Source: a virus. Taken from it: a DNA stretch of 42,738 nt. The position numbers were made by a program, and so were the translations under genes. Below are positions 1-42,738 of this stretch, piece after piece. Location: IMG/VR virus record IMGVR_UViG_3300010371_000055, positions 1 through 42,738 of that record. One strand, written 5' to 3'. Within the stretch, counting starts at the first letter, position 1. Every line of letters begins with the position of its first letter. Below the pieces are notes generated by a model. That model did no database searches and had not been told where the DNA came from. It was given only the letters and a program-made list of their open reading frames with translations.

Positions 1-123
1 AGCAGCACGTCACCCAATTTTGGGCGAACGAGCAGAAGATTTTCGACGCGGCGATTCGGACGGAGAACATCCCTGCCGAACGGGCAAACGCCCTCGTTGA
101 AAAAGGGGCAGTTGCTCTCGGTC
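1..123. repeat. Terminal direct repeat, left copy (circular assembly overlap)
   Basis: Bases 1-123 are identical to bases 42616-42738. The repeat lies inside the scaffolding protein gene, whose reading frame runs across the junction unbroken. This is best explained by a circular contig or circularly permuted genome with an assembly overlap. True terminal repeats of podoviruses usually sit between genes. Confidence 0.95.
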
Positions 124-428
124 TCGACCTGAAGAACGAATCGACGAAGACCTTTCTTCAAGGCGCGACCGCCCGCCTGATGGCGATGCATCACGCCATG
201 GCGATTGGGGAGGACTCAGCCGCCGTTGCCGGGGCCGAGCCCACCGGAATGGGAACGGACTACGCCGCCCAAGCGAAGGACATCCGGCAGAACCCGGCCA
301 ACCCTCTGAACGGAGCCTACTGGAACAAGGGAAACAAGTTCTCGCGCTCCGACCACGACGCCGCCGTTCAACGGGTGAACGAACTGATCCGCCTTGCGAC
401 CGAGCAGGAAGGGAAGAAGAAGCGGTGA
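1..428 (+). CDS. Scaffolding (capsid assembly) protein, C-terminal part
   Basis: This is the C-terminal part of the gene that starts at 42066. Joining 42066-42738 to 124-428 gives a 325-residue protein. The N-terminus is rich in Ala, Gln, Thr and Gly and looks disordered. The middle is helical and charged, and the C-terminus carries NPANPLNGAYWNKGN followed by a basic tail ending in GKKKR, typical of T7-type scaffolding or head assembly proteins. Such proteins direct procapsid formation with the coat protein and then leave. The position between portal and capsid genes fits. The TGA stop overlaps the GTG start of the GroES-like gene (GTGA), so the two are probably translationally coupled. The assignment rests on position, composition and this C-terminal pattern; there is no catalytic motif to check. 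Confidence 0.8.
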   Translation, partial: QHVTQFWANEQKIFDAAIRTENIPAERANALVEKGAVALGLDLKNESTKTFLQGATARLMAMHHAMAIGEDSAAVAGAEPTGMGTDYAAQAKDIRQNPANPLNGAYWNKGNKFSRSDHDAAVQRVNELIRLATEQEGKKKR

Positions 429-727
429 TTAAGCCCCTCCGCGACCTGATCGTCGCAACCCCATTGGAAGAGACGGACAAGGTTGGCCTGCTTACCATGC
501 CCGAGAATTACAAGCAGGCGCTTCGGGTGCATTACCGAGCCGTGGTTCTCTTCTCCGGGCCGAAGGCGACGAAGGACGTGCCTCCCGGCTCCATTGTCCA
601 CGTCTCGGAGTCCTGGGGAGAGAAGTTCACCTACCGAAACAAGCCGGTCTGGATCGGTCGCATCCGAGACATCAACGGAGTGTGTGAGGGCGATCGGATA
701 GCTGACTACAACTCCTACCTCGATTGA
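425..727 (+). CDS. GroES-like co-chaperonin
   Basis: This is a 100-residue protein, close to the usual 95-100 of GroES. It starts IKPLRDLIVATPLEE, matching the GroES opening 'I+PL.DR+.V'. A loop-like stretch follows (GLLTMPENYKQ), then AVVLFSGP, DVPPGSIVHVSE and IRDINGVCEG, which parallel the GroES strands 'V..VG.G', 'VK.GD.V.F' and the C-terminal 'E.DILA'. Phage GroES analogues such as T4 gp31 cap the host GroEL so that the major capsid protein can fold. Placement directly after the scaffold gene agrees. The start is GTG, overlapping the scaffold stop; the stop overlaps the TTG start of the next gene. The fold assignment is by pattern; a GroES-fold protein with another job remains possible. 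Confidence 0.72.
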   Translation: MIKPLRDLIVATPLEETDKVGLLTMPENYKQALRVHYRAVVLFSGPKATKDVPPGSIVHVSESWGEKFTYRNKPVWIGRIRDINGVCEGDRIADYNSYLD

Positions 728-2085
728 AAGTCCTCTTTCTCAACGCTCCCTGGTGGAACAAGGAAAAGGGTCAGCCTCTTCGGCGTGGCGTTCGGGCCGG
801 GTCACGCTGGCCGATGACGATGGGCAGCCACTTCGTCCCCGACTGCTTTATGCCGATGGGGTACATGCCGTTTCCCATGTTCATGTCATCGGCTGCCGGA
901 TGGCTGGAGTCGGTTGGAAAGGAACAGGGGATTGAGGTCTTCATGCGTGACTCGGTTACTCGAGGAGAGTCCTACTTTCGCTGCTACCAGTTCGTCAGGG
1001 AATTGGCCCCCGATTGGATCGTCTTCGAGTCAGCCCCGAGTTCGTGGGAGTCCGATCAGTCGGTCTTGGCCCAACTCGCCAAGGAAAGCCCGAAGTCGAA
1101 AGTCATCCTGACCGGCACAATCACGGCTGATACGGCAATAGTCTCGGCTCTCGATTGGGCGAACATAGTCGCCATAGTTAAGGGCGAGTACGAGAAGGGT
1201 GTTGAACAGGCCATCACCTTCGACGGCAAGAGACTCGTCATCGAACGCCAATTCCTATCCGCCGAAGAGATGAACGGCCCCCACGGAAAATGGAAGTGGG
1301 ATGAGGGGTGCGCCCGAAACTACTTCGACGAAAACCCTCTTGGACAGAAGGCTCCGCAACTCCAAATGTGGGCGAGCCGGGGATGCGTGTACAAGTGCAA
1401 CTTCTGCGCCTGGCCGGCCACGATGACCAATGATGATCCTTTGGGAACGGGAAAGCGGCAGATGCGCTACTACACCGGGGACTACATCGAAAACTACATC
1501 CGTGAACGTCTAGCCGTCACGCCCGACTTGGCCTGCGTCTATTTCGACGGTGACACCGAAAACATCTCCGACAAGCACACCCTGGAAATCTGCGAGGCGA
1601 TGCGGAAGATCGGGCTTCCCTGGTCGATGATGTGCCGGGGGGATACCTCTTCCCGCGAGGTATGGAAGGAGATGAAGGACTCAGGATGCTTTGGGGTGAA
1701 GATCGGCTTCGAGTCCGGTTCTCAGCGCGTCGTCAACGAAATCATCGGCAAGGGTCTCGACATTCAGGAGGCCCGAGAGACAGCGATCTTCCTCAAGGAA
1801 ATCGGGATGACCGTCCACGGTACTTTCATGGTGGGGCACCCAGGCGAGACGCCAGAGGAGGCCAACCAAACGATCGAGTTTATCAAGAAGCTCTATGCCG
1901 ACAAGGGGCTCGATACCCATCAGTTGAGCGGCACGGCCACAATCAGCGGCACACCCTTGGCGAACCTTAAGGCAGGGGAGACGAACAAGCGTTACCCAGG
2001 GGCGAAGAAGGACGAGAACTGGCATGAGGATCTAGACGGCCAGAAGAAAGCCGAGCGACTGGTCCAGGCCACCCACGGCTATTGA
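724..2085 (+). CDS. Radical SAM protein with B12-binding-like N-terminal domain
   Basis: A 453-residue protein. Residues 1-165 look like the Rossmann-type 'B12-binding' domain that precedes many radical SAM enzymes (KVLFLNAPWW at the start, IVFESAPSS, then KVILTGTIT and IVAIVKGEYEKGVEQAI). The DxHxxG cobalamin motif is not visible, so B12 binding is doubtful. The [4Fe-4S] motif is ASRGCVYKCNFCAW with Cys221, Cys225 and Cys228. Downstream come KIGFESGSQRVVNEI and HGTFMVGHPGETPEE, typical of the SAM barrel of this class. Known members methylate, thiolate or rearrange unactivated carbons; the substrate here is unknown. The TTG start overlaps the preceding stop (TTGA). It leads a coupled cassette with a methyltransferase and two glycosyltransferase-like genes, between scaffold and capsid. 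Confidence 0.88.
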   Translation: MKVLFLNAPWWNKEKGQPLRRGVRAGSRWPMTMGSHFVPDCFMPMGYMPFPMFMSSAAGWLESVGKEQGIEVFMRDSVTRGESYFRCYQFVRELAPDWIVFESAPSSWESDQSVLAQLAKESPKSKVILTGTITADTAIVSALDWANIVAIVKGEYEKGVEQAITFDGKRLVIERQFLSAEEMNGPHGKWKWDEGCARNYFDENPLGQKAPQLQMWASRGCVYKCNFCAWPATMTNDDPLGTGKRQMRYYTGDYIENYIRERLAVTPDLACVYFDGDTENISDKHTLEICEAMRKIGLPWSMMCRGDTSSREVWKEMKDSGCFGVKIGFESGSQRVVNEIIGKGLDIQEARETAIFLKEIGMTVHGTFMVGHPGETPEEANQTIEFIKKLYADKGLDTHQLSGTATISGTPLANLKAGETNKRYPGAKKDENWHEDLDGQKKAERLVQATHGY

Positions 2086-2087
2086 CC

Positions 2088-2714
2088 ATGCTCGAAGAAC
2101 TGGCGATCACCCCAAGCAAGGCTGGTTCGGGAGTGGATGGGTGGCACTCCGATTCCCCGATCTTCAAGCATGTCGTCGAGACCGTTAGCCCGAATCTGAT
2201 CGTCGAAGTCGGGACGTGGAAGGGAAAGAGTGCAATCGAGATGATGCGTTGGGCGAAACCCACAACCACGATCATCTGCGTCGATACCTGGCTTGGGAGC
2301 TTAGAGCATTGGATGAATGAGGACATGGAACTCCTATACGGCAGGCCAACGCTCTACATCGACTTCCTGAAGAACATCCGTGAGGCGCAGATCGAGGAAC
2401 AGGTGAGGCCCCTTCCCATGCCCTCAAAGCAGGCCGCTCGGTTCCTGAAATGGAAATGGGATTGGGTTCCGAAGGCGGACCTAATCTACATCGACGGCTC
2501 GCATGATGAGCAGGATGTCCTCTCCGATCTTGTCGAGTACTGGCCATTAGTCCAAAAAGGAGGGATCATGTTTGGAGATGACTACGGCGAATGGCAGACC
2601 GTTGAGGACGCCGTTGAGAAATTCGTGCAGGGCAGAACCGACATGGACTTTCGACTAAAGGACTACACCGACCGGGAAGAGTGTTTTTGGATCATGGAGA
2701 AAATCGCCACATGA
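2088..2714 (+). CDS. Class I SAM-dependent methyltransferase
   Basis: About 208 residues with the class I (Rossmann) methyltransferase pattern of the Methyltransf_24 type: LIVEVGTWKGKSAIEM is the glycine-rich SAM-binding motif I, TTTIICVDTW is motif II with the acidic ribose-binding residue, ADLIYIDGSHDEQDVLSDL is the motif IV region, and GGIMFGDDYGEW follows. This family includes sugar and small-molecule O-methyltransferases and is common beside glycosyltransferases. The acceptor is unknown. I chose ATG at 2088; a TTG at 2082 overlaps the upstream stop and is equally possible. The stop overlaps the ATG of the next gene (ATGA). It is the second gene of the enzyme cassette between scaffold and coat protein. 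Confidence 0.87.
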   Translation: MLEELAITPSKAGSGVDGWHSDSPIFKHVVETVSPNLIVEVGTWKGKSAIEMMRWAKPTTTIICVDTWLGSLEHWMNEDMELLYGRPTLYIDFLKNIREAQIEEQVRPLPMPSKQAARFLKWKWDWVPKADLIYIDGSHDEQDVLSDLVEYWPLVQKGGIMFGDDYGEWQTVEDAVEKFVQGRTDMDFRLKDYTDREECFWIMEKIAT

Positions 2715-3475
2715 AGACCGCCGTGATGTTCTGCGGGCAGGCCCGCACCTTCGCCAACTGCTACCAACTGATGTACTGGAAGGTTCTGCGGTTATTCGAG
2801 AACCCGACCTTTTTCGTACGTGTTGCTGACGATGAGCAGGCCGGGACGATGAACGCCCTCTCAGTCCACTTCGAGGATGTTCGGGTCGAGTACGTCAAGC
2901 AGCCCGACTTCCCCCACGCAAAGCAGATGATGGAACGGAGTAACTTCGCCGGCTACGGCTTGGCGAACCACGTCCAGGCGCATCCCGAGAATCTCCTGAA
3001 GGCCTTCTGGTCGTACAAAAACGTCTGGGAAATGATCCCAAACCCGGAGGATTACGATGTCTTCGTTCGCATCCGTCCGGACCTTTGGTTCATGGAATTT
3101 GAAATGCCGGAGAGACCGCAGGCGAACGAGGCGATTACGCCAGTATGGGGACGTTTCGGCGGGGTCAACGACCGTCTTGCGATCATGGGATTTGAAGCTG
3201 CCCGCGCATACATGACGACTTTAGACCGAGTGGATAAGCTCCTCATGCTCGGCTGTCCCTACCACCCCGAGACTCTGACCCGGTACTCCCTCGAAGACCA
3301 GGGCATCACGATTCGGCATGAGCTGGAGGCGTTTTTCTATTTTCGGCGTCTTCGCACCGCGATCCACCCGACCCAGAACTCCCTAGGGAACAACGAATGG
3401 CTCTGCGGAGAGCCGGAGGCGGCGTGGCATCATCGGCTATACGAAGCCAAGAAACCCGCCAGTGTATTTGCGTGA
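2711..3475 (+). CDS. Putative glycosyltransferase-like protein (RIRPDL motif)
   Basis: 254 residues starting MKTAVMFCGQARTFANCYQL, an opening seen in glycosyltransferase-like proteins of bacterial polysaccharide loci ('alllsGq.R.f'). The middle has YKNVWEMIPNPEDYDVFVRIRPDLWF; the 'YD.viR.RpDl.f' block is the family's hallmark and probably marks a nucleotide-sugar site. EITIRHELEAFFYF-like text near the end is less conserved. The ATG overlaps the methyltransferase stop, and the gene overlaps the next glycosyltransferase (GTGA). The natural reading is transfer of a sugar onto a glycan or protein in the same pathway as its neighbours, but neither donor nor acceptor can be read from sequence. Family assignment is moderate; the fold could be shared by a non-catalytic relative. 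Confidence 0.6.
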   Translation: MKTAVMFCGQARTFANCYQLMYWKVLRLFENPTFFVRVADDEQAGTMNALSVHFEDVRVEYVKQPDFPHAKQMMERSNFAGYGLANHVQAHPENLLKAFWSYKNVWEMIPNPEDYDVFVRIRPDLWFMEFEMPERPQANEAITPVWGRFGGVNDRLAIMGFEAARAYMTTLDRVDKLLMLGCPYHPETLTRYSLEDQGITIRHELEAFFYFRRLRTAIHPTQNSLGNNEWLCGEPEAAWHHRLYEAKKPASVFA

Positions 3476-4227
3476 GCGACGAACGCCCCTACATCTACAT
3501 CGGGACGCCGATTCGAAACGTCCCCCAGCACCCCGACTTGAAGGAGGATCTGTCGAACGTCTTCCAGTTTCTCGAAAAGGAGTACACCCAGCCGATCTTG
3601 GAATTGATGCACGACGCGACCTTGCCCTATCGGATCAAGGTGCTGCTCTGTCCCTACGCTGGGATCGCTAGGGCTCGAAACAAGATCGCCGCAGACTTCC
3701 TGAAGGACCCGAAAGGGTGGATGCTTTTCTTTGCGGACTACGACCTCTGCCCCACCGCCGACGACTACAAACGGATCATCTCGAAAAATATGCTGGTCCT
3801 CGGCGGTCTCTACGCCACCCGAGAGAAAAACTGCCATTGGGTCTTGAACTCCTACATCGGGCCGGAACCGGACAAGGATGGAATTTGGCAGGTTTGCGAA
3901 CTCGGGACGGGCTTCAAATGCTTTCACCGCCAAGCCTTCGAGAAAATCCTCGCCGCCTACCCATGGCTTGAGCACGAAGCCGACGACCACCCCGGAGTCA
4001 ACGAGTGGGGATTCTTCTCCATGGGAGTCGTCCAATTCGAGAACAAGAGGCGTTGGCTCACCGAAGATTACTGGTTCGACAGCCTTTTCCGTGAAATCAA
4101 GATACCGATTTTCGCCGATACGACAGTCAGGCTAAAGCACCGGCACACCAACCAAAACGGGGAAAAGCTGCTCTTTCCTTTGGAGGCCCCTCCGATCCCG
4201 ATTCAGAAATTCGCATTGACAGCGTAA
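3472..4227 (+). CDS. Glycosyltransferase (GT-A fold, phage type)
   Basis: 251 residues. The N-terminal strand (YIYIGTPIRNV), the basic helix motif ARARN (residues 66-70), the acidic motif LFFADYDLCP (Asp89, Asp91; DxD-like, metal and nucleotide-sugar binding) and LTEDYWFDS near the C-terminus are characteristic of GT-A glycosyltransferases found in many uncultured tailed phages. It ends with a DTTVRLKHRH block. The same order of motifs (ARN, acidic motif, LTEDxxW, DTxxRLxH) occurs in the gene at 40081, so the two are probably distant paralogues. The GTG start overlaps the upstream stop. It is the last gene of the cassette; a 37-bp gap separates it from the small head protein gene. Confidence 0.8.
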   Translation: MSDERPYIYIGTPIRNVPQHPDLKEDLSNVFQFLEKEYTQPILELMHDATLPYRIKVLLCPYAGIARARNKIAADFLKDPKGWMLFFADYDLCPTADDYKRIISKNMLVLGGLYATREKNCHWVLNSYIGPEPDKDGIWQVCELGTGFKCFHRQAFEKILAAYPWLEHEADDHPGVNEWGFFSMGVVQFENKRRWLTEDYWFDSLFREIKIPIFADTTVRLKHRHTNQNGEKLLFPLEAPPIPIQKFALTA

Positions 4228-4264: not shown

Positions 4265-4678
4265 ATGGGATCAAACCTCACCCGCTCTGGCGTCAACAAC
4301 ACCGCTTTCAGCCCCAACGCCGACAAAACGGCGCAGCTCACAGGATCAGGGCAACTCGTCCCCGGCAGCATCAGCCCGACCTACGCGGCGACCATCGCCC
4401 TCGACTCCATCCTCCAGTACTCCTGCTTCGTCTCGCTGACCACGATTGGCTCGACCGCAGCGACGGTGACGACCGGGACCGTCTTCAACGCCGGCGGACT
4501 CCTCAATGTCCTCGTCAACCAGGTCTCGGGCGGCTCGGCCACCGTGACGTTCTCGACCGGATTCAAGGTCAACGGTACGGTGTCCCCGAACTCGGCCAAG
4601 GCGGTCGGCCTCTCCTTCGTCTCGGACGGGACGAACTTCATCGAGTTCAGCCGCACGAGCATCGCGGGTGGCATCTAA
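4265..4678 (+). CDS. Small beta-rich head-associated protein
   Basis: 137 residues, dominated by Thr, Ser, Val, Gly and Asn with almost no charge, and a predicted all-beta pattern. The tail has VGLSFVSDGTNFIEFSRT, a 'f.sDGTnwye..r' ending common to small phage virion proteins next to coat genes, where they act as decoration or head-fibre subunits. The ATG follows a short leader with no clear Shine-Dalgarno sequence. A strong terminator follows its stop by about 30 bp, so it ends the scaffold-cassette transcript. The function is inferred from position and composition only. Confidence 0.6.
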   Translation: MGSNLTRSGVNNTAFSPNADKTAQLTGSGQLVPGSISPTYAATIALDSILQYSCFVSLTTIGSTAATVTTGTVFNAGGLLNVLVNQVSGGSATVTFSTGFKVNGTVSPNSAKAVGLSFVSDGTNFIEFSRTSIAGGI

Positions 4679-4710
4679 TTTCGAATACGGGGGTATTCGT
4701 TCATGGCAAG

Positions 4711-4744
4711 AACGCGCTCTCTCATCGGGGGGCGCGTTTTTGTT
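4711..4744 (+). terminator. Rho-independent terminator before the capsid gene
   Basis: AACGCGC at 4711-4717 pairs with GCGCGTT at 4732-4738, and the stem can extend inward with TCTC/GGGG pairs including G-U. A run of five T (4737-4741) follows. It separates the scaffold/enzyme transcript from the capsid gene. Confidence 0.8.
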
Positions 4745-4925
4745 GTTGCAATAGGTTTTCAACCTGATTGAAGTGCCGGTGAGCCCTCGGTAGGAACTCC
4801 CAGCCAACGCCACAAAGGCGGCCCCGAAGGAAGGCTCGGAATTAACTATCCGAGTACGTCCCGCTGAAAACGCGGATCTCCGGGTCTCGGATGCGACAGG
4901 AAAACCTCTCTCATCCTTTACTCTC
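4745..4925 (+). promoter_or_regulatory. Structured 5' leader of the major capsid gene
   Basis: These 181 non-coding bases between the terminator and the capsid ATG contain several consecutive hairpins: AGGTT/AACCT (4753-4765), CGCC/GGCG (4808-4820), CCGA/TCGG (4824-4839), and a longer stem ATCCGAG/CTCGGAT (4848-4854 with 4886-4892) enclosing CCGC/GCGG (4861-4864 with 4872-4875). There is no Shine-Dalgarno sequence just before the ATG. I see no confident -35/-10 pair. It may stabilise the capsid mRNA, control translation, or hold a promoter for a phage-specific factor; no known RNA family was recognised. Confidence 0.5.
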
Positions 4926-5861
4926 ATGGCTGGTGCAATCATCAATCTGCCGCCCTTCTGGCAGGTCGCGTTCGATGGCGTGTGGCGCGAAAACCCCGCT
5001 CAACAGACGGAGCACCGTCTGGCGGGCAGCTACATGACCAAGATGGTCAACGGAAGTCAGGAGCGGATCGACTACATGGGGTCGCAGCAATATGCGATGC
5101 GGCAGGTGACTGCCCGAGCCCAGAAGACCGAGCCCTCCGACGTTCCCATGTATTCCCGTTGGGTCCGTCCACGGCCCTACGACAAGACGACTTGGATCGA
5201 CCAGTTCGACCCGATCCTCTTGGGAACTCTCCCCAATCCCGACTCGGCGGTGGCCCGCAATCACGCGATTGCTGCGGCTCGCCAGAAGGACATCATCCTT
5301 CTGAACGCCCTCTTGGGGACGAACTACACCGGAGCCCAGGGCTCGACGGCGGTGACGCTCCCGACAACGGGCGGCCCGCTCAACACGGGTCAGACAATCG
5401 GCGTCACCTACGGTTCTGGATCGGCCAACTCCGGCCTCCAGTTGGCCAAGCTGACCGCTGCCTCCTACCTTCTCGACAACAACGACATTGCCGAGACCGG
5501 CCGGCACTTCGCCTACTCCGCTAAGGAGTTGAACAACCTGATTACGAATGTGGATCAGGTGAACTCGGTTCTCTACAACGACGTTCGCGCCCTTCGGGAC
5601 GGTCGGATTCGGGACTTCATGGGCTTCATGTTCATCAGGTCGCAGCTCGTCCCGTTCTCGTCCGGCTCGACTACGATCCGAACCTGCGTCGCCTGGCAGC
5701 AGGATTGCCTCTTCCTCGGAATCGGGGAGGACGTGATGACGAAGATCGACATCCTGCCGATGCAGTCGCAGGCGATTCAAGTCTATACCTGTCTCCTCTT
5801 GGACGGCACCCGCGCCACCGAGCAGGGAGTCGTTCAGATCAACTGCGATGAGTCGGTCTAA
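4926..5861 (+). CDS. Major capsid protein (Phage_capsid_2/Bbp17-like)
   Basis: 311 residues of the coat family seen in BPP-1-like and related podoviruses. Landmarks are an N-terminal arm with YMTKMVNGSQERIDYMG, then SRWVRPRPYDKTTWIDQFDP, NPDSAVARNHAIAAARQKD and LLGTNYTGAQGSTAVTLP, matching the family's 'D.iD..d......dp.s.......A..R..D..I..a..GTa.tG..g'. The C-terminal half has a beta-rich stretch ending with VVQINCDES. It forms the HK97-fold shell, helped by the scaffold protein. The gene begins after a structured leader without an obvious Shine-Dalgarno sequence and is followed 25 bp later by the next virion gene. Both lie between two strong terminators, which suits a highly and separately expressed unit. 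Confidence 0.85.
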   Translation: MAGAIINLPPFWQVAFDGVWRENPAQQTEHRLAGSYMTKMVNGSQERIDYMGSQQYAMRQVTARAQKTEPSDVPMYSRWVRPRPYDKTTWIDQFDPILLGTLPNPDSAVARNHAIAAARQKDIILLNALLGTNYTGAQGSTAVTLPTTGGPLNTGQTIGVTYGSGSANSGLQLAKLTAASYLLDNNDIAETGRHFAYSAKELNNLITNVDQVNSVLYNDVRALRDGRIRDFMGFMFIRSQLVPFSSGSTTIRTCVAWQQDCLFLGIGEDVMTKIDILPMQSQAIQVYTCLLLDGTRATEQGVVQINCDESV

Positions 5862-5886
5862 CCCCTAACCACAAGGACAAACACAC

Positions 5887-6687
5887 ATGGCTATTTGGTA
5901 CACCGACGTTGCCCAGGCTCAAGAGCAGGGCAACAACTTCCCGGCCCAGCCGGGATCGCAGCAGATCACCAACCTCCCGAGCAGCATCGGGCAGAACGAT
6001 TCGGTTGTGGAGGGTCCGCCCTGGATTTGGGCCTCCTACACCTGGACCGGAAACGAGGCGGTCAACGACATCATCAACATCGCAAAGTTGGAGGCGGGCT
6101 ATCTGGTCTCCCCGGACGGGCACGTTTGCTCGGGGACCACGGCCCCGGCGACGACCCTGACGGTTGCGATTGGCGACAACGACCTCAACCTCCCTACGGC
6201 TCTGCCGATCCCGAACGCCCAGGCCCTGACGAACATCATCGGGTCTCCGGTGCCTCTCCAGGCCCCGGCGTTCGTGGCGAACACGGCCTACGTTGTCGGG
6301 AATGTCGTGTTGGATTCGGCGTCCTCGCCGGCCAACCAGGCGTTCACCTGCATCGTGGCCTACTCGGGCAGCGCGACCGCTCCGCACTCGAATACGACGA
6401 ACTGGATCAACAACCAGGTCCGGTACTCGTCTTCGATCGACATCCACGCCGCGAGCGGAAACGTCGCCTTTGCGACGGGGACGCAGCTCTACGGAGGCCC
6501 GATGTCGAAGGTTCCGGCGAGCATCACGGTCGGGCAGGTGCAGGTGGGGGCGACCGCCAATCAGATCGCCAACTACCCGTACATCATCCAGCAGGATTGC
6601 TGGCTCCAAGCCGTCATCCTCACCGCAAACACGATTGCGGCCAACACGGTCAGCCTCTTCCGAGTCGCCGTCGCCGCTGCGAACTAA
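5887..6687 (+). CDS. Capsid-linked virion protein with carbohydrate-binding-like module
   Basis: 266 residues, Ala/Asn/Thr-rich and beta-rich, encoded directly after the coat gene and before a terminator; probably an abundant head decoration or structural protein. Residues about 127-177 form a module with the pattern F..NTAY..GNVV, F.CIVAYSGS, P and a closing W. This module looks like a CBM5/12-type carbohydrate-binding domain and recurs in tail tube A, tail tube B and the tailspike. The segments before and after it (SSIDIHAASGNVAF; DCWLQAVILTANT) resemble the receptor or decoration folds of other podovirus head proteins. ACAAGGAC about 13 bases before the ATG is a weak ribosome site. The decoration role is inferred; its place in the high-expression unit is visible. 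Confidence 0.6.
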   Translation: MAIWYTDVAQAQEQGNNFPAQPGSQQITNLPSSIGQNDSVVEGPPWIWASYTWTGNEAVNDIINIAKLEAGYLVSPDGHVCSGTTAPATTLTVAIGDNDLNLPTALPIPNAQALTNIIGSPVPLQAPAFVANTAYVVGNVVLDSASSPANQAFTCIVAYSGSATAPHSNTTNWINNQVRYSSSIDIHAASGNVAFATGTQLYGGPMSKVPASITVGQVQVGATANQIANYPYIIQQDCWLQAVILTANTIAANTVSLFRVAVAAAN

Positions 6688-6725: not shown

Positions 6726-6779
6726 GACCTCCGGCGGGGTATCCATTGTGGCGATGGACCCTGCCGGAGGTCTTCTTTT
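6726..6779 (+). terminator. Strong Rho-independent terminator after the capsid unit
   Basis: GACCTCCGGC at 6726-6735 pairs perfectly with GCCGGAGGTC at 6763-6772, followed by TTCTTTT. It closes the two-gene capsid unit, just upstream of the tail tube A start at 6788. Confidence 0.9.
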
Positions 6780-6787
6780 GTAACGAT

Positions 6788-7717
6788 ATGCCCACCACTC
6801 TCGGACCTGTCCAGATCGCAAACCTAGCCCTATCAAGGATCGGTTCGCAAGCGATCAACTCCCTTGCGGACACGAACAACCCGGCCTCGGTTGCCTGCAA
6901 CAACAACTACCAGTTGGCGTATCTCGCGGTCTCCAGGGCGGCGAAGTGGAATTGCTTGGCGACTACGGCGGTCCTAGCGCAGATCCCGCAGACCCCGTTG
7001 CCGAATCTACCTTCGGGCGGTCTTCCTCCGATCCCTCCCACAGTTCCGACTTGGGAGCCGAACACGACCTTTGCCGCGAACTCGTATTTCACCTTCGGAG
7101 GCTACTTCTACTTCGTCCTCATCAACTACACCTCATCGAACAATTTCACGGTGGACCTGACGAACGGGAGTTTCGTCCAGACGAACCTACCTACCTCCTA
7201 CCCCTTCGCTCCCTTCAACGGTTCAGCCTTCCCTTCGGGGTGGGCTTACCAGTACGAGTTGCCGGCCGATTTTCAGCTTCTCATGGTCCTGAACGGAAAC
7301 ACGTATTGGGGATTCCAGGGTTTTGGTTCGTCCTCGTCCGACTTTCAGATCATGGGGAAATTTCTCTTCTGCAACACCCCTCAAGCGGTCATTCAGTACA
7401 TCAAGAACGAACCGGATTCGACGCAGTTCGATGCGTTGTTCACAGAAGCCCTATCCCTCAAATTGGGTTCGATGATCGCAACGGCCTTGAGGCAGGATGG
7501 GGGACGGATGGAATTGGAGTTGGAGGGGGGGTACAAGTCCGTCATCAAGCAGGCCCGGACGATGAATGGGAATGAGCAGCAGGTTCGGCGCTTCAACCCA
7601 ATCGGTTCCTCCATGTTCAATCGGTCCCGTTACGGCGGGATCAACGGAAGAGTTTACTTGCCCAATGTACCGAACTTTATTGCCAAGATCGTACGGTGGT
7701 TAAAGATGGTTGGGTGA
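6788..7717 (+). CDS. Tail tubular protein A (T7 gp11-like)
   Basis: 309 residues. The N-terminal helices QIANLALSRIGSQAINSL and the later YQLAYLAVSRAAKWNC are the 'alN.aL..iG...i.sl.' and 'y......al....W.fA' signatures of gp11-like tail tube or head-tail gatekeeper proteins. WAYQYELPADFQLLMVLNG and the C-terminal FDALFTEALSLKLGSMIA also match. It is longer than T7 gp11 (about 196 aa) because an insertion at residues 86-135 (WEPNTTFAANSYF onward) resembles a degenerate copy of the carbohydrate-binding-like module of this genome. ATG at 6788 lies just after the terminator T-tract, with no Shine-Dalgarno sequence. Its 3' end overlaps the HNH endonuclease gene by 22 bp. Confidence 0.85.
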   Translation: MPTTLGPVQIANLALSRIGSQAINSLADTNNPASVACNNNYQLAYLAVSRAAKWNCLATTAVLAQIPQTPLPNLPSGGLPPIPPTVPTWEPNTTFAANSYFTFGGYFYFVLINYTSSNNFTVDLTNGSFVQTNLPTSYPFAPFNGSAFPSGWAYQYELPADFQLLMVLNGNTYWGFQGFGSSSSDFQIMGKFLFCNTPQAVIQYIKNEPDSTQFDALFTEALSLKLGSMIATALRQDGGRMELELEGGYKSVIKQARTMNGNEQQVRRFNPIGSSMFNRSRYGGINGRVYLPNVPNFIAKIVRWLKMVG

Positions 7718-8235
7718 AATCAATACCCGGATATGAAGGCCGTTATTCCATCACAGATGACGGGCAGATTTATTGTCACCGGAGGAAAGATTCAATGAAT
7801 CGGGTCAAGTGGGGGATGTTCATGTGCCAGAAAACGACCCGGACTGGTTACAGGATAATCGGGTTAAGAGACGCGACTGGGAAAAAGAGATTTCATCCTA
7901 TTCACCGTCTAGTGGCACAAGCGTATGTGGGAGACGTTAAAAACCGAGTTGTGGATCACATTGATGGCAACTTGGAGAATAACCATGCATCGAATCTACG
8001 TTTGTGCGACTCATCCCAGAATCAAGGGAATCGTAAATTGAGCAGGAATAACACTTCCGGATTTAAAGGTGTGTGTTGGCAGAACCAGATGAAGAAATGG
8101 CAGATGTCCTGCCGAATCAACGGCTCTCGGCGTTATAGTTGGCACGATACGAAAGAAGAGGCGGCCCGAGCCTATGACACTGTGGCTATTGAGGCTCATG
8201 GTGAATTTGCCCGCGTGAACTTTCCCAGGTCCTAA
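7696..8235 (+). CDS. HNH homing endonuclease (NUMOD4-HNH-AP2)
   Basis: 179 residues with three recognisable parts. WVKSIPGYEGRYSITDDG is a NUMOD4 DNA-binding motif (residues 6-23). HRLVAQAYVGD, then VVDHIDGNLENNHASNLR is the HNH_3 nuclease core. SGFKGVCWQNQMKKW to ARVNFP is an AP2-type DNA-binding domain. Free-standing homing nucleases of this architecture cut related phage genomes that lack the gene and so spread themselves. It begins with GTG inside the last codons of tail tube A and ends one base into the tail tube B start (TAATG). Its base composition looks more AT-rich than its neighbours, consistent with recent arrival. No intron boundaries were seen. Confidence 0.92.
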   Translation: MVKDGWVKSIPGYEGRYSITDDGQIYCHRRKDSMNRVKWGMFMCQKTTRTGYRIIGLRDATGKKRFHPIHRLVAQAYVGDVKNRVVDHIDGNLENNHASNLRLCDSSQNQGNRKLSRNNTSGFKGVCWQNQMKKWQMSCRINGSRRYSWHDTKEEAARAYDTVAIEAHGEFARVNFPRS

Positions 8236-11200
8236 TGTCGAAGTTCGTTCACCAGACAACCTCGTTCTCCGGGGGGGAGACTTCTCCCAAGGTTGACGCT
8301 CGGGTAGATCAGGCGAAGTACAATTCGTGGCTTCGTCAGTGTCAGAACATGGTCCCGTACAAGACTGGGGGGCTAACGCGGGCCATAGGGACAAAGTACG
8401 TCGCCTCGGCCAAGCTCAAGAATACGGTCGGACACAACTACTGCGCTAACCTTCTCAAGTTCATCTTCGACCCGAATGTCACCTTCGCCTTGGAGTTCGG
8501 GCATGAGTACATCCGGTTCTACTCGAATGAGCAGCAGGTCACGATCAACTCAGCCCCCCTCTGGATCACAGGAACAACGTATGCACAGGGGGCTTTCGTC
8601 GAAGACCCTGGGGACGGAAACAATATCTATTACGCCATCTTGCCCGGTACGAGCACGACGCAGCCGCACGCGGCCCCGAGCCAATGGGTGAAGCAGAACA
8701 TCTACGAAGTTCCGAGCCCTTACTCGGCTGATGCTGGTCCTTCCGGTTCGATCTTCGACACCGATGTTTTCCAAATCCAGCCCTGCCAGATCAACGACAT
8801 CATCTACATCGTCCACCCTGAATATCCGCCGTACAAGCTCTCACGGTTCGGGGATACGGATTGGACAATGCAGGAGGTCGAATTTCTCACTCCAGCCCTC
8901 CTCGATCAGAACTCAAGTGACATCACCCTCACGCCGAACGCTCTGATCGGAAACGGGATTTTGGTTCAGGCCAACGCACCTGCCTGGGTGGCATCGCAGT
9001 TCTACACCTTGGCAAACTCGGTTGAGGTGAGCGGCATCATCTACAATTGCATCGTTACGAATGTCTCCGGGTCCACCTTCGCCGCCGACTACGCCTTGGG
9101 ATATTGGCAGAAGGTCGGCATTTTCAACCCGCAGCACGACGGTTCGACCTGGCAGTATTCGGTCCTTCGCCAGTCGGCCTCGGTTCAAATCGTTGGAGAT
9201 GTGAACTTGGGATTTCCCTTGGCTGATCCGAACGCGATTCAGGAGTCCGATCCGCTTCAGATTCTTGGTAACTACGAGGTTCACACCTACGGAGTGTGGT
9301 CGGCGACAATCCAGATTTTGAGGTCGTTGGATGGGGGGATAACCTACGATACGGTTTACAACTTCACCGGATTGAGTGACCGGAACGCGGATATTCAGGG
9401 CAACGCTCCTCAACTCGGTATCTACAAGATCGCCATTTCCAACAATAGCGCACCCACCAATCCTGGGGCCACAGCGCCCCGAGTCGTCTTGGAGGCTGAC
9501 AACGGATTTCTATCCGGTCTCTTCGAGATCACGAACGTAGGCATCGCGGACGCCTCGGCCATGATTAACGGGGATGTGTACCAAATCCTGACCTTGGGAA
9601 CTACGAATTGGTCAGCCTTGGGGGCTGGAAACAACGCATTTGTCGGAGAGATTTTCGTTTACAACGGTTCGGCGGTGACGGGCTCAGGAGGGCAGGTGAC
9701 CAACCCGTATTTGGCTCAAGCGAACGTCGTCACCCAATTGAGCGACAGCAACCCCTTATCTCCTGCATGGGTCAATGGGACGAGCTACACCGCGAGCCAA
9801 AACGTCAGTTACAACTTCATCAACTACGAGGCAATCAACAACGTGCCGAGTGATGGCGTGCCTCCACCTCAAGACCCGACGAATTGGGGAACGGTGCAGC
9901 CGGGCGGATCGGAGTATTGGGCAGAGGGAGCATGGTCGGAGTATCGGGGCTATCCCCAGGCCATCACCTCGTTTCAGCAGAGAATGTGGTACGCCGCTTC
10001 CGGTTTCCAACCGCAGAGGATTTGGGGGACGGTCACGAATGACATCGAAAACTTCGCCTTGGGGGATCAGACCTTGGCGACGGATGGATTGGCCTTCGAC
10101 CTGAACGCTCCGACAAGGGGCTCGATTCTCTGGCTCACCGCTCAGTCGGATTTGTTCGCCGGGCTCATGGGCGCAGAGTGGGTTATCAATTCCGGTTCCG
10201 TCAACTCGTCGGGTGGGGGTACTGGTTCAGCAATTACGCCTTCAGCCCTGAACGCGGTGGAGCAGGGGACGTATGGCTCGGCCCCCTTCGTCATTCCTGC
10301 CATCGTCGGAAATGCGGTGTTCTTCGTCCAGCGGCAGGCTGACGCCATCCGGCAAATGTTCTTCTCGGTTTACACGGCGAAGTACATGAGTTCGGACCTT
10401 ACGACGCAGGCCGATCACTTGTTCTCTTCGGGCATCGTCAAGATCGACTACCAGACGCGGTGGAGGCATCAGGGTATGCTTTGGGCCCTGACGCAGCAGG
10501 GGTCGTTGTGCGGCCTCACCTACGACTTGGATCAAGAGGTTTTCGGATGGTGCCGAAGGCTGACAGGGACCGGACAATTCGCGGCCCCCGGCGTCCCGCT
10601 ACTGAATGACAACGGATTCGAGTCGTTGGCTATTATCCCCGGAACAAACAATTCCGACGATCAGGTTTGGGTGGTTGCGAACCGCCTCATCAATGGGGTG
10701 CAGACCCGCTACATCGAACTCGTCAACCCAAACAATTGGGAGGAGACGTTTTCAGGTGCGCCAAATCCTCCGGCTCCTTCTTTGGCCGATGCGTACTACT
10801 TGGACTCTGGGACCACGATTGCGAGCCCCGGAAGTCTGACGCTGACGGCAGCCCTACCTTGGCTCCCTGGTCGGTACGTGTACGGGTTGGCGGACGGAAA
10901 CGGATTCGGCCCACTTCTCGTTGGGAATGACGGGACAATCATCCTGCCGAACAATATCCCCACAACCGTCACGAAAGTTCAGGTTGGTCTCCCGATCCTA
11001 TACTACGGCCAGCCGATGCGCTTCGATTCGAGTATGACGGCGGGGAACTTGCAGGCCCGAACGAAGCAGGTGGCGGATTGGTACGTCAGACTTTGGAACT
11101 CATCTGGCGGGCTCTTGAGCAACGGAACCACAACCTATCCCTATTGGGTGGCGAGCACAGCCTACGTTCCGGGCAACTGCGTCATCAGCGATCAGACGCA

Positions 11201-11501
11201 GGGAGCCTTCATGTGCGTCATCGCGTACAGCGGGATTGTGGACCCGAGTTTGGAGCCTACGTCTTGGATTTCGATTCCCGTCCCTTCCTATCAGGCCCCA
11301 CAGGCGATTCCGTACACGAAAAACGCGAATTACCCCTTTGCCATCCCGACCTTCGTTGCGAGCCCGACCGACTTCCGTTTGCCCACAGCCTTGCAGCCTT
11401 CTCCAGATCACGACCCCAAAGTCATCCTCACGGGCAATGACGCGCTGCCGTTGACCGTGCTCGGTCTCTTCGTCAAGATGGACCTCATATCCCAGCCGTG
11501 A
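8235..11501 (+). CDS. Tail tubular protein B (T7 gp12-like) with inserted binding modules
   Basis: 1,088 residues, well above the roughly 800 of T7 gp12. The opening (TTSFSGGETSPKVDARVDQAKYNSWLRQCQNM, cited in parts: FSGGETSPKVDARVD and CQNMVPYKTGGLTRAIGTKY) is the gp12-like 'f..GE.sp...gR.D...Y..g...l.N......Gg...RpGt.yv' signature. Later blocks RMWYAASGFQPQRIWGT, DGLAFDLNAP, GAEWVIN and WALTQQGSLCGLTYD match the beta-propeller part. The excess length comes partly from four modules at about residues 108-155, 247-296, 508-556 and 968-1015, each with the W....Y..G..V...Y.C...SG...P......W pattern. It forms the tail nozzle below tail tube A. The stop overlaps the next gene (GTGA). Confidence 0.88.
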   Translation: MSKFVHQTTSFSGGETSPKVDARVDQAKYNSWLRQCQNMVPYKTGGLTRAIGTKYVASAKLKNTVGHNYCANLLKFIFDPNVTFALEFGHEYIRFYSNEQQVTINSAPLWITGTTYAQGAFVEDPGDGNNIYYAILPGTSTTQPHAAPSQWVKQNIYEVPSPYSADAGPSGSIFDTDVFQIQPCQINDIIYIVHPEYPPYKLSRFGDTDWTMQEVEFLTPALLDQNSSDITLTPNALIGNGILVQANAPAWVASQFYTLANSVEVSGIIYNCIVTNVSGSTFAADYALGYWQKVGIFNPQHDGSTWQYSVLRQSASVQIVGDVNLGFPLADPNAIQESDPLQILGNYEVHTYGVWSATIQILRSLDGGITYDTVYNFTGLSDRNADIQGNAPQLGIYKIAISNNSAPTNPGATAPRVVLEADNGFLSGLFEITNVGIADASAMINGDVYQILTLGTTNWSALGAGNNAFVGEIFVYNGSAVTGSGGQVTNPYLAQANVVTQLSDSNPLSPAWVNGTSYTASQNVSYNFINYEAINNVPSDGVPPPQDPTNWGTVQPGGSEYWAEGAWSEYRGYPQAITSFQQRMWYAASGFQPQRIWGTVTNDIENFALGDQTLATDGLAFDLNAPTRGSILWLTAQSDLFAGLMGAEWVINSGSVNSSGGGTGSAITPSALNAVEQGTYGSAPFVIPAIVGNAVFFVQRQADAIRQMFFSVYTAKYMSSDLTTQADHLFSSGIVKIDYQTRWRHQGMLWALTQQGSLCGLTYDLDQEVFGWCRRLTGTGQFAAPGVPLLNDNGFESLAIIPGTNNSDDQVWVVANRLINGVQTRYIELVNPNNWEETFSGAPNPPAPSLADAYYLDSGTTIASPGSLTLTAALPWLPGRYVYGLADGNGFGPLLVGNDGTIILPNNIPTTVTKVQVGLPILYYGQPMRFDSSMTAGNLQARTKQVADWYVRLWNSSGGLLSNGTTTYPYWVASTAYVPGNCVISDQTQGAFMCVIAYSGIVDPSLEPTSWISIPVPSYQAPQAIPYTKNANYPFAIPTFVASPTDFRLPTALQPSPDHDPKVILTGNDALPLTVLGLFVKMDLISQP

Positions 11502-38338: not shown

Positions 38339-40084
38339 ATGGCCGATAACGACAAGTTGGCCACAGAGCTTTTGAGAAAGTACGGCTCCTTGGAGGCGTG
38401 GAGGAAGGCGTACCGGGACGATGACTGGCAATACCTCGCCCAGTACATGCTTCCCCAGGACAGCAATATCACGACGAAGAAGACGGAGGGAGTTTCGGGG
38501 TGGACTGACCGCATCTTCGATACGACGGTGATCCACGCGGCGGAAGTCTTGGCAGCTGGCCTTTTCAATTGGTGGACCCCGCAGAACCAGGCGTGGGCAG
38601 AGTACGATGTACCGGACGAACTTTCTACCCAGGGATCGGAGAATGACGATGCGATCCAATGGCTAGGGGAGGCGGCGGACAAGGCGATGGCTGAACTCGC
38701 TCGTTCCAACTTCTACCCAGTCAAAGCGACGGGGGACTTGGGTCTGTCGGTCTTCGCGACCGACTGCATCATCGTCGATGAGTCTGACACCGGGAACGAG
38801 CTATTCAACTTCATCCACTGCAAGATCGGCACCTACGTCATCGAGGAAAACTACAAGGGCTACGTCGATGTCCTGATGCGGGAGATCGAGATGACCTACC
38901 GACAGGTCTGCCAGAAGTTCAGCAAGCCCGATGACAAGATACCCGAGAAGATGGAGGGTCAGACGAAGGGGGCGGCGGGGAAGTCGAAACGCTTCAAGAT
39001 CCTCCATTGCATCTTCCCGCGTGAGGACTCGGACAGGCTGCCCAAGCGGAAGGATGGGGCGAACAAACCCTTTGCTTCGGTCTTCGTCTCGGTCGATTTC
39101 AAATCGGTCATTCGGGTCTCGGGGTACGATGAAAACCCGATCCTATGCCGAAGGTTTAAGAAGTGGGATACGCAGTACGGATACGGGCCGGGGTATCTTT
39201 CGTTACCCGATGCGAGACAGGTCAACTACGTGCAGCAGTACATGGACTCGTTGGCCGAGTTGCACGCCTACCCGCGTGTCCTGATCCCTGACAATTTGGA
39301 GGGAGATGTTGATTTACGGGCCGGAGGATCGACGACCTACGATTCCTCCATGCCGACAGCCAAGCCCGAGGAGTGGGCGAGCGTAGGGGATTACAAATTG
39401 GGCCTGGAGATGCAGGAAGGGCGAAGGCAGGCGATCCGTGACGCTTTCTATGTCGATGCGTTCAAGCTCCTCAATAGCCCTCCCTTGCTCGACAAGGAGA
39501 TGACAGCCTTCGAGATTTCCCAGAGGCAGGCCGAGCAGTTGCAGAACATCACGGCGGTAGATGCCCGTCAAATTGTCGAGTTCATCAATCCCCTGATGAA
39601 CCGGGTGTTTTCAATCATGTTCAGGGCGGGGAAGCTTGGGAAGCCTCCTCAACGCCTGATGCAACCGACCGGGCCAACGAGTTCCGCTTTGATCCTGCCG
39701 AAAGTCGTCGTCACTTCCCGCTTCAATGATGCCCTTCGGGCTTTGGGCAATCGAGGCATTGATGAGTGGTCCGCGTGGGCGCTGAAGATTCAGGAGGCGA
39801 ACCCGCAAGCCGGAATCTTGGATTTGGTGGACATGGACGACACCGGACGCACGTATGCTCGGAACGCCGGTGTTGCTCCGGACCTGATCCGCAAGACGAA
39901 GGGACCGAACTCGGTTGAGTCGATTCGTGCGGCTCGTGCTCAAGTCTTGGCTCAACAGAGGCAGGCGCAGTTGGCCGAGCAGTTGGGCAAGGCGGGACGC
40001 GGGCTTGGCGGATCGCCCCAATTCATGCAGGAAGCGGTGAAGGATCAGATGGATCAGGGTAAGAACGGCAATAGGGCTGCGTGA
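38339..40084 (+). CDS. Portal (head-to-tail connecting) protein
   Basis: 581 residues of the head-tail connector family (PF12236-like). Landmarks: DDDWQYLAQYMLPQDSN, DTTVIHAAEVLAAGLFNWWT, NFYPVKATGDLGLSVFATDC, YGYGPGYLSLPDARQVNYVQ, PPLLDKEMTAFEISQRQAEQ and a Gln/Ala-rich C-terminus (QAQLAEQLGKAGRGL). The dodecameric ring forms the DNA entry channel and joins the head to tail tube A. The stop overlaps the start of the glycosyltransferase gene at 40081 (GTGA), so the two are translated together. Confidence 0.93.
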   Translation: MADNDKLATELLRKYGSLEAWRKAYRDDDWQYLAQYMLPQDSNITTKKTEGVSGWTDRIFDTTVIHAAEVLAAGLFNWWTPQNQAWAEYDVPDELSTQGSENDDAIQWLGEAADKAMAELARSNFYPVKATGDLGLSVFATDCIIVDESDTGNELFNFIHCKIGTYVIEENYKGYVDVLMREIEMTYRQVCQKFSKPDDKIPEKMEGQTKGAAGKSKRFKILHCIFPREDSDRLPKRKDGANKPFASVFVSVDFKSVIRVSGYDENPILCRRFKKWDTQYGYGPGYLSLPDARQVNYVQQYMDSLAELHAYPRVLIPDNLEGDVDLRAGGSTTYDSSMPTAKPEEWASVGDYKLGLEMQEGRRQAIRDAFYVDAFKLLNSPPLLDKEMTAFEISQRQAEQLQNITAVDARQIVEFINPLMNRVFSIMFRAGKLGKPPQRLMQPTGPTSSALILPKVVVTSRFNDALRALGNRGIDEWSAWALKIQEANPQAGILDLVDMDDTGRTYARNAGVAPDLIRKTKGPNSVESIRAARAQVLAQQRQAQLAEQLGKAGRGLGGSPQFMQEAVKDQMDQGKNGNRAA

Positions 40085-40824
40085 ATCGAAAGCTCTACAT
40101 AGGGTGCCCGCTGCACAACGGCACCTGCGATGCGTTTCGGATGGGGTATGGCAACCTGATTCAAACCGGGATTCCTGGGTGGGATTCTAGATGGGTGGAA
40201 TTGAATGGCGGCGGAATCACGGTCGCCCGAAACCTCATGGCTGCCCAAGCCATCCGAACCCAAGCTGACGTTCTTCTTTTCGTCTCCGGCGACATCGGTT
40301 TCCAGAATGACCAGATGGCGGCGACGGTGAAACGAGTTCTCAGCCATTTCGAGCGTGATCCGGAAATCGACATCGTTGGAGGCATATACCTTTTCAAACG
40401 CTACCCTTTGCAGATGGTATTGGCCCAGGATGAGCCAAGGAGCCCGAACGAGCATGGGTTGATCGAGGTCAACCGATTGGGAACGGACTTCGTTGCGGTT
40501 TCGATCCGGTCTCTTGAGCAGATCATCGAGAAGTGGAAGACGATTTCGGACACGTTGTACGGCTCCGTTATCCCTCTCAAATTTGAGTCGGAGTACGGTC
40601 CGCAATGGAATATCTTCGGCCAGTCTGTGATCTTGGGAGGGAAGTTTCTGACCGAAGATTTCTATTGGTGCAGGCTCGCCAGGGAGGCGGGGCAGAAGAT
40701 TTACGTCGATACCCAAATCCGTCTTCAGCATTGGGGGCAGCACAACTACGACGCGAACCAGGCCGATGGGATTGACCGGGCTTTGACGGTTCCGAATCCA
40801 GAGAAAGAGCCCGATGGAAAATGA
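40081..40824 (+). CDS. Glycosyltransferase coupled to portal gene
   Basis: 247 residues from GTG at 40081. Motifs: LYIGCPLHNG (N-terminal strand), ITVARNLMAA (residues 46-55), VLLFVSGDIGFQND (acidic motif, Asp71), LTEDFYWCRLA and DTQIRLQHWGQH. The order is the same as in the gene at 3472, suggesting an ancient pair. GT-A fold; donor and acceptor unknown. Being coupled to the portal gene and three genes before the scaffold, it is expressed with virion proteins. It overlaps the next gene by 11 bp. Confidence 0.78.
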   Translation: MNRKLYIGCPLHNGTCDAFRMGYGNLIQTGIPGWDSRWVELNGGGITVARNLMAAQAIRTQADVLLFVSGDIGFQNDQMAATVKRVLSHFERDPEIDIVGGIYLFKRYPLQMVLAQDEPRSPNEHGLIEVNRLGTDFVAVSIRSLEQIIEKWKTISDTLYGSVIPLKFESEYGPQWNIFGQSVILGGKFLTEDFYWCRLAREAGQKIYVDTQIRLQHWGQHNYDANQADGIDRALTVPNPEKEPDGK

Positions 40825-41830: not shown

Positions 41831-42069
41831 ACAAATCCGAACGAGAAGACCTGATTTTCAAGGTGGCGGTTTCGATGGCCCCAGCCTTTCGGGACAAGTT
41901 CGATTTCAGCAACCAGGGCAGTTCCGCCTTCACCTCCCTAAATAACTATGAGGAACTGGCGACGATGGCCTATTTGGCTGCTGAAGCGTTGGTGGTGAAG
42001 CATGAGGCGCGGTTGATCGCTGCCCAGGCCCAGGACGAGAAGACGGCGAAGGCCGCAGCCACGGCATGA
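41827..42069 (+). CDS. Hypothetical small helical protein
   Basis: 80 residues, helical (YEELATMAYLAAEALVVKHE), ending Ala-rich. ATGA overlaps on both sides link it to the preceding gene and the scaffold gene. Function unknown. Confidence 0.6.
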   Translation: MNKSEREDLIFKVAVSMAPAFRDKFDFSNQGSSAFTSLNNYEELATMAYLAAEALVVKHEARLIAAQAQDEKTAKAAATA

Positions 42070-42738
42070 GCACGGCCACGGCAGAGCCCGCCAATGGGGC
42101 GCAAACAGCCCTAGGTGCCTCGCAAACCCAAAATGGGGGTCAGGCTACCACCCAGACCAACGGATCGTCAGGGAGCGGCATTTCCGAGCCATGGGCGAAG
42201 GAATGGATCAAAGGCGACTTCACCCTGAACCACGAGGCCCTTTCCCGTCTCCCCGACCACCTGAAGGCGCTGGAGCCTACCCTTAAGCGCCAGCAGAACC
42301 TTGAGGGCATCCTGATCGACTACGCCCACAAGACCAATCTGGCCGGCCAGAAAGGTCTTACTCCGCTCATGCCCGGCAGTCCTCCCGAGGTCATCGCCAA
42401 ACGGAAGGAGTTCTTGGACACGGCGAACGGCGTCCCGAAAACCTGGCAGGAATACGGCGTACAGAAACCCCAGGATCTGAAGGATGAGGTGTGGGATGGG
42501 AAGTTGGCCGAAGGGGTTGCCCAATGGGCTCATAAATACTCGGTTCCCCCGACCGCCGTTAAAGAACTGGTTGATTTGTCTGTTTCCCAAGCCAAGGGTC
42601 GGTTGACGGAGAACGAGCAGCACGTCACCCAATTTTGGGCGAACGAGCAGAAGATTTTCGACGCGGCGATTCGGACGGAGAACATCCCTGCCGAACGGGC
42701 AAACGCCCTCGTTGAAAAAGGGGCAGTTGCTCTCGGTC
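42066..42738 (+). CDS. Scaffolding protein, N-terminal part (continues at 124-428)
   Basis: The first 224 codons of the 325-residue scaffold gene. The first 40 residues are Ala/Thr/Gln/Gly-rich and probably flexible. WAKEWIKGDFTLNHEALSRL and EFLDTANGVPKTWQEYGVQK follow, then a helical middle. Because the contig end repeats its beginning, the frame continues without change into base 124 of the window. See the entry at 1-428 for function. Confidence 0.8.
   Translation, partial: MSTATAEPANGAQTALGASQTQNGGQATTQTNGSSGSGISEPWAKEWIKGDFTLNHEALSRLPDHLKALEPTLKRQQNLEGILIDYAHKTNLAGQKGLTPLMPGSPPEVIAKRKEFLDTANGVPKTWQEYGVQKPQDLKDEVWDGKLAEGVAQWAHKYSVPPTAVKELVDLSVSQAKGRLTENEQHVTQFWANEQKIFDAAIRTENIPAERANALVEKGAVALG
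42616..42738. repeat. Terminal direct repeat, right copy
   Basis: Identical to bases 1-123; shows that the contig closes into a circle. Confidence 0.95.

Follow-up and report, generated by a model that had tools for sequence, protein, structure and literature searches.

The phage genome described here carries, between conserved head-assembly genes, a compact cassette for a radical SAM enzyme (rSAM), a methyltransferase (MT) and two putative glycosyltransferases (GT2711 and GT3472), and this cassette probably (at roughly 60%) serves the glycosylation of a virion protein with a radical-edited, methylated sugar. By sequence comparison, the four genes belong to recognizable enzyme families, form one unit, recur in unrelated phages and lie mainly among head genes. 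Glycosylation of phage virions is known; the new elements are a radical SAM step and the mobility of a cassette that favours head modules and is almost absent from deposited phage genomes.

Organization of the locus

The window, that is, the whole 42,738-nt stretch that was analysed, begins and ends with an exact 123-bp terminal repeat (1-123 and 42616-42738), so the record appears to be a complete genome, circular or terminally redundant, and the scaffold gene crosses the window ends (42066 to 428), being split by the junction. The tail genes are of the short-tailed-phage type, and an HNH endonuclease gene (7696-8235) lies between two tail-tube-type genes (6746-7717 and 8235-11501).

The initial annotation described five genes between the scaffold and major capsid protein (MCP) genes, joined to the scaffold and to each other by start/stop overlaps and closed by a terminator near 4711. 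All five open reading frames are found there, nearly end to end, and the terminator is a real and strong hairpin (Table 1). Four-base overlaps occur at 425 (GTGA), 724 (TTGA), 2711 (ATGA) and 3472 (GTGA), but the one proposed at 2082-2088 probably does not hold: the most likely start of the MT is ATG 2088, which follows the rSAM stop by two bases, and not TTG 2082, which would overlap it. For the rSAM gene, the TTG start is backed by homologues that start at the equivalent residue. A sixth gene ahead of the terminator (called 4265 below), the glycosyltransferase gene next to the portal gene and the terminal repeat were absent from that annotation.

Table 1. Features of the cassette region and of the neighbouring head genes.
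Feature	Position	Strand	Remarks
Portal / head-tail adaptor	38339..40084	+	phrog_332, 8.5e-84
Third glycosyltransferase, GT3472 family	40081..40824	+	Overlaps portal stop; phrog_1574, 4.1e-12
Scaffold gene, 5' part	42066..42738	+	Frame open across the junction; homologue at the equivalent place in ~49 loci
Scaffold gene, 3' part	3..428	+	
GroES/Cpn10-type co-chaperonin (GroES)	425..727	+	Core morphogenesis gene
Radical SAM enzyme (rSAM), HpnJ/AprD4-like	724..2085	+	Cassette gene 1
Class I SAM methyltransferase (MT)	2088..2714	+	Cassette gene 2
Predicted GT-A-fold glycosyltransferase, DUF7796-like (GT2711)	2711..3475	+	Cassette gene 3
Putative GT-A glycosyltransferase, phrog_1574 / STIV A197 type (GT3472)	3472..4227	+	Cassette gene 4
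Small beta-strand protein (4265)	4265..4678	+	Core gene; conserved upstream of MCP in ~50 loci
Intrinsic terminator	about 4703..4746	+	Hairpin of -28.5 kcal/mol, z -5.3; after 4265, before the capsid gene
Major capsid protein (MCP), PF19821, HTVC010P-like	4926..5861	+	

The core head genes and the slot between them

The MCP matches PF19821 (3.4e-46) and shares about 33% identity with Pelagibacter phages. The GroES protein taken singly reaches Cpn10/GroES only at E 0.07, while a profile built from three homologues finds Thermus Cpn10 at E 5e-9 over profile positions 1-87 of 100, and this near full-length match argues for a real co-chaperonin. About 50 capsid-related loci, of which many are near-identical, share the order scaffold-GroES-4265-MCP, and in ~50 loci GroES adjoins the scaffold gene whether the enzymes are present or absent. 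Scaffold and GroES had been counted with the enzymes as members of one cassette; because both persist in dozens of relatives that carry no enzymes, they are better seen as core genes and bystanders, a part for them in the enzyme pathway is rejected, and the accessory cassette reduces to rSAM-MT-GT2711-GT3472.

Searched by sequence against solved structures, the 4265 protein has no convincing relative. Its predicted structure (AlphaFold, pLDDT 73.5) weakly matches, by Foldseek, one tailspike and one capsid spike, and this makes it a possible candidate for a capsid-spike or decoration-like protein and for the acceptor of the sugar. It cannot be the general acceptor: it is undetected in three loci (L169/L170/L173; L-numbers denote loci of relatives), where a glycosyltransferase gene stands in its place, and a universal acceptor role was rejected on this ground.

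In most of the ~50 MCP-related loci, nothing is inserted between the GroES and 4265/MCP genes. Several lineages have GT3472-family genes in this slot, and a sugar or FkbM methyltransferase is often their fusion partner or companion; examples are an FkbM-glycosyltransferase fusion (L011), a sugar-O-methyltransferase-glycosyltransferase fusion (L127/L128/L131), a glycosyltransferase-FkbM-glycosyltransferase series (L167) and reverse-strand genes of which one is a glycosyltransferase (L006). On the capsid tree this distribution requires at least four gains or losses, so the slot takes up glycan genes repeatedly. The third glycosyltransferase of the window is 49% identical to a gene of L011 that also lies downstream of the portal gene.

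The enzymes of the cassette

The enzyme families named in the initial annotation (GroES-like, radical SAM, methyltransferase and two glycosyltransferase-like proteins) agree with the profile searches and, for GT2711, with structure prediction. The first enzyme is a member of the radical SAM superfamily by core domain (PF04055, 5.9e-19) and by its CX3CX2C motif, present as CVYKCNFC and found in all homologues examined, except four in which an intein-like insert splits it. One such insert, with HNH-like residues, lies inside the catalytic Cys motif of the L005 protein (4650-6485; RGCPYK/CLAGDVLV...NNVLVAN/CCFCAW), and the rSAM genes of L045, L046 and L049 have an insert at the same site with similar N-terminal sequence. 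The best curated model for the window rSAM is HpnJ (7.9e-38) and the best solved structure is AprD4 (6fd2, 2e-18). Membership of either family was rejected, as the scores are far below both cut-offs (130.5 bits against the 577.6-bit equivalog cut-off of HpnJ, and 62.7 bits against the curated cut-off of 500 of the AprD4 diol-dehydratase model). The DxHxxG cobalamin signature of the N-terminal domain is absent from the window rSAM and from all homologues but two, and some cobalamin radical SAM enzymes lack this signature. The substrate of HpnJ is a hopanoid-bound glucosamine, from which it forms the cyclitol ether (PMC12583986), and AprD4 deoxygenates a pseudodisaccharide by taking off a hydroxyl group (PMC5461906); with these as the nearest named relatives, the best guess for the chemistry of the rSAM, made by analogy, is sugar remodelling.

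The only sequence-level match of GT2711 is DUF7796 (4.8e-5), and no solved structure was a convincing relative in the sequence search. Its AlphaFold model (pLDDT 83) has BoGT6a and glycogenin as best Foldseek matches (E 2.5e-6); the fold match is moderate (TM about 0.45) and no DxD motif is seen, so that its GT-A assignment is one of predicted fold. GT3472 is assigned to the GT-A group by profile and motifs: it matches phrog_1574 (1.3e-9), its ADYD and LTED motifs (DxD-like and ED) are conserved, and its family profile finds the structure of STIV A197 (2c0n, E 7e-7).

The MT matches Methyltransf_24 (8e-18), with weak similarity to sugar O-methyltransferases of the CmcI/TylF/rhamnosyl type, while its best PHROG match is labelled DNA methyltransferase. 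This label, together with the well-known phage glycosyltransferases that add sugar to DNA (work cited in PMC12619734), raises the alternative that the glycosyltransferases and the rSAM hypermodify bases of the phage DNA. Such a role is very unlikely: neither a base hydroxymethylase nor a dioxygenase is found in a scan that covered ten other proteins of the window, of which only YqaJ and ERF recombination proteins are recognized; the MT itself is Methyltransf_24/CmcI-like; and most phages have the cassette by head genes, not by replication genes.

The cassette in other phages

An rSAM profile search gave 42 viral and 72 bacterial loci, dereplicated to 17 phage and 45 bacterial lineages. The rSAM is paired with GT2711 (within 6 kb) in 13/17 phage but 2/45 bacterial lineages (Fisher p 2.6e-8), and in three of the four phage lineages that lack the pair the contig ends just after the rSAM gene. 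A head gene (terminase, portal or capsid) lies within about 7 kb of the cassette in 13 of the 17 lineages, the capsid genes belonging to different PHROG families; among the rest, the contigs of L014 and L020 are cut off and the L045/L049 group has no hallmark head gene in the stretch covered. The cassette is found between the terminase large subunit (TerL) and portal genes (L012, L039 group), beside TerL (L002, L003, L021), after the MCP gene (L004, L005, L013, L019, L024 group) or, in L047, with a head structural gene on one side and tail genes on the other. In L004 all four genes, rSAM-MT-GT2711-glycosyltransferase, are contiguous in the same order, after a capsid-protease gene. The first three are contiguous in L003, L012, L013, L019 and the L039 group, and L012, L013, L019 and L039 encode a GT3472-family protein at another point of their head region. 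In L024 (5512-12246), the glycan cluster is larger: between capsid and tail-connector genes, an epimerase gene and additional glycosyltransferase-like genes surround the rSAM and GT2711 genes.

The phage rSAMs form one clade (100/96) that includes the window enzyme, itself on a long branch, with the long-branched L047 as the exception. Distances between rSAMs and between GT2711 proteins correlate modestly (rho 0.35, permutation p 0.003, n=15), and glycosyltransferase-methyltransferase fusions occur in L011, L004 and L127. The slot being variable and empty in most relatives, the genes could be unrelated accessory genes gathered in an insertion-tolerant gap, with no common product; this is improbable given these fusions, the correlated divergence of rSAM and GT2711, and the co-occurrence and order conserved across unrelated phages. 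The shared pathway proposed in the initial annotation is thus borne out to the extent that a pathway-like cassette recurs in unrelated phages, with its order kept in some, and the placement outside host-takeover loci agrees with its strong tie to head genes across lineages.

Scattered genes in relatives had been named as evidence against that proposal, and the relatives mostly do not provide it, though there are counterexamples. In the L031/L044/L045/L046/L049 group, MT, GT2711 and rSAM genes share a region with genes for a clamp, a primosome or helicase, and a DNA methyltransferase, a virion structural gene following only about 6 kb downstream, and in MW202753 a GT3472-like gene and a methyltransferase gene lie near a RusA nuclease gene.

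No close relative of the cassette was found among 50,697 deposited phage records. The window rSAM and the L003 GT2711 match none of the deposited phages, the window GT3472 gives four weak partial matches only, and the L003 rSAM gives a single one, in Streptomyces phage SF3, where thymidylate kinase and NUDIX genes adjoin it. A viral scan using GT3472 alone returned no matches, and no description of an rSAM-MT-glycosyltransferase-glycosyltransferase cassette was found in the literature consulted (titles, abstracts and passages).

Bacterial relatives

Most bacterial rSAM homologues adjoin nucleotide-sugar epimerase genes, in many bacteria as pairs, and glycosyltransferase genes, neighbourhoods that point to glycan synthesis and fit cell-surface glycans equally. 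Across many SAR11 genomes (Pelagibacteraceae, L088-L109), an rSAM gene recurs with a GT2 gene and two epimerase genes, apparently as a surface-glycan locus. Both bacterial loci with the rSAM-GT2711 pair, from Opitutaceae (L063:5915-10048 and L064:6824-10051), directly follow flagellin genes and are candidates for bacterial flagellin glycosylation. Flagellin is a known glycosylation target and, like capsid protein, is abundant and self-assembling, so this placement is compatible with protein acceptors, although it is not proof of them.

Proposed function

In the mechanism we infer, rSAM, MT, GT2711 and GT3472 would be one mobile glycan-modification cassette, inserted between conserved head-assembly genes and probably expressed late, together with them. 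The two soluble glycosyltransferases, perhaps with the third one downstream of the portal gene, would transfer sugar from host nucleotide-sugars onto a protein of the new particle, which may be the MCP, the spike-like 4265 or another virion protein. The rSAM would remodel or deoxygenate the linked sugar, in the manner of HpnJ and AprD4, which act on already linked sugars, and the MT would cap one of its hydroxyls. Virions would thereby carry an unusual methylated sugar, which might protect them or modify surface binding.

A virion acceptor is favoured by the match of the GT3472 family to the STIV protein A197, the capsid protein of that virus being glycosylated (PMC10551542). It is also favoured by the bacterial rSAM-GT2711 pairs beside flagellin genes and by the window cassette proteins, in which hydropathy detects no membrane segments. 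It is weakened by the replication-gene group, by the RusA neighbourhood of MW202753 and by the host-recognition cassettes of pelagimyophages (PMC7029224).

The main rival holds that the cassette modifies a host surface glycan or flagellin, for superinfection exclusion or receptor masking, and merely lies within a late operon. Although bacterial rSAM homologues occur with epimerase pairs and glycosyltransferases, two of them beside flagellin genes, and although pelagimyophage glycosyltransferases have been interpreted in this way and share their region with radical SAM cassettes (PMC7029224), this reading is rather unlikely, because the cassette lies repeatedly among terminase, portal and capsid genes of unrelated phages, its slot in the window is within the head-gene operon and its enzymes are all soluble, with neither the membrane flippase nor the membrane glycosyltransferases of gtr loci. 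Serotype-converting gtr loci encode a membrane flippase and membrane-anchored glycosyltransferases; serotype conversion of this type was rejected for the window cassette by the same hydropathy result.

Beyond virion glycosylation as such, it is suggested more tentatively that a phage-specific rSAM lineage travels with an MT and GT-A enzymes between unrelated head modules and may place a rare, remodelled sugar on assembling capsids, as a radical pathway dedicated to the virion. Few phages have been proven to glycosylate their virions with enzymes of their own. If the proposed function is true, a head-gene cassette recurring in many uncultured lineages would suggest that such glycosylation is more widespread, and the radical SAM step would mean that the phage does more than take over a host sugar unchanged. 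The cassette offers a defined four-gene set for expression and testing, and it cautions against taking every phage glycosyltransferase for a DNA or O-antigen modifier.

Comparison with known systems

HpnJ, of hopanoid synthesis, and AprD4, of apramycin synthesis, resemble the window rSAM as its best curated and structural matches, and both act on an already linked sugar, but the window enzyme falls well outside either family by score. In pelagimyophages, radical SAM and glycosyltransferase genes also form variable cassettes, a likeness of gene type only; those cassettes lie in a host-recognition region and their glycosyltransferases are read as LPS/O-antigen modifiers (PMC7029224). The archaeal virus STIV has a glycosylated capsid protein, B345, and the glycosyltransferase A197, with which GT3472 shares the family profile match and the putative GT-A fold. 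The account of STIV consulted here describes a single glycosyltransferase and no rSAM-MT-glycosyltransferase cassette, and the acceptor of A197 is itself putative (PMC10551542). A further functional parallel may be the mycobacteriophage Che8-type systems, for which glycans on capsid and tail-tube subunits and a glycan shield are reported (Freeman et al. 2023, via PMC11256854 and PMC12619734). Phage-encoded glycosyltransferases are common to these systems and, putatively, the window phage. In the related phage Maravista, however, the reported place of the glycosyltransferase genes is close to the 3' end of the genome, whereas those of the window cassette lie among head genes, and the passages on the Che8-type systems in these sources mention no radical SAM step, while the window cassette combines an rSAM with an MT.
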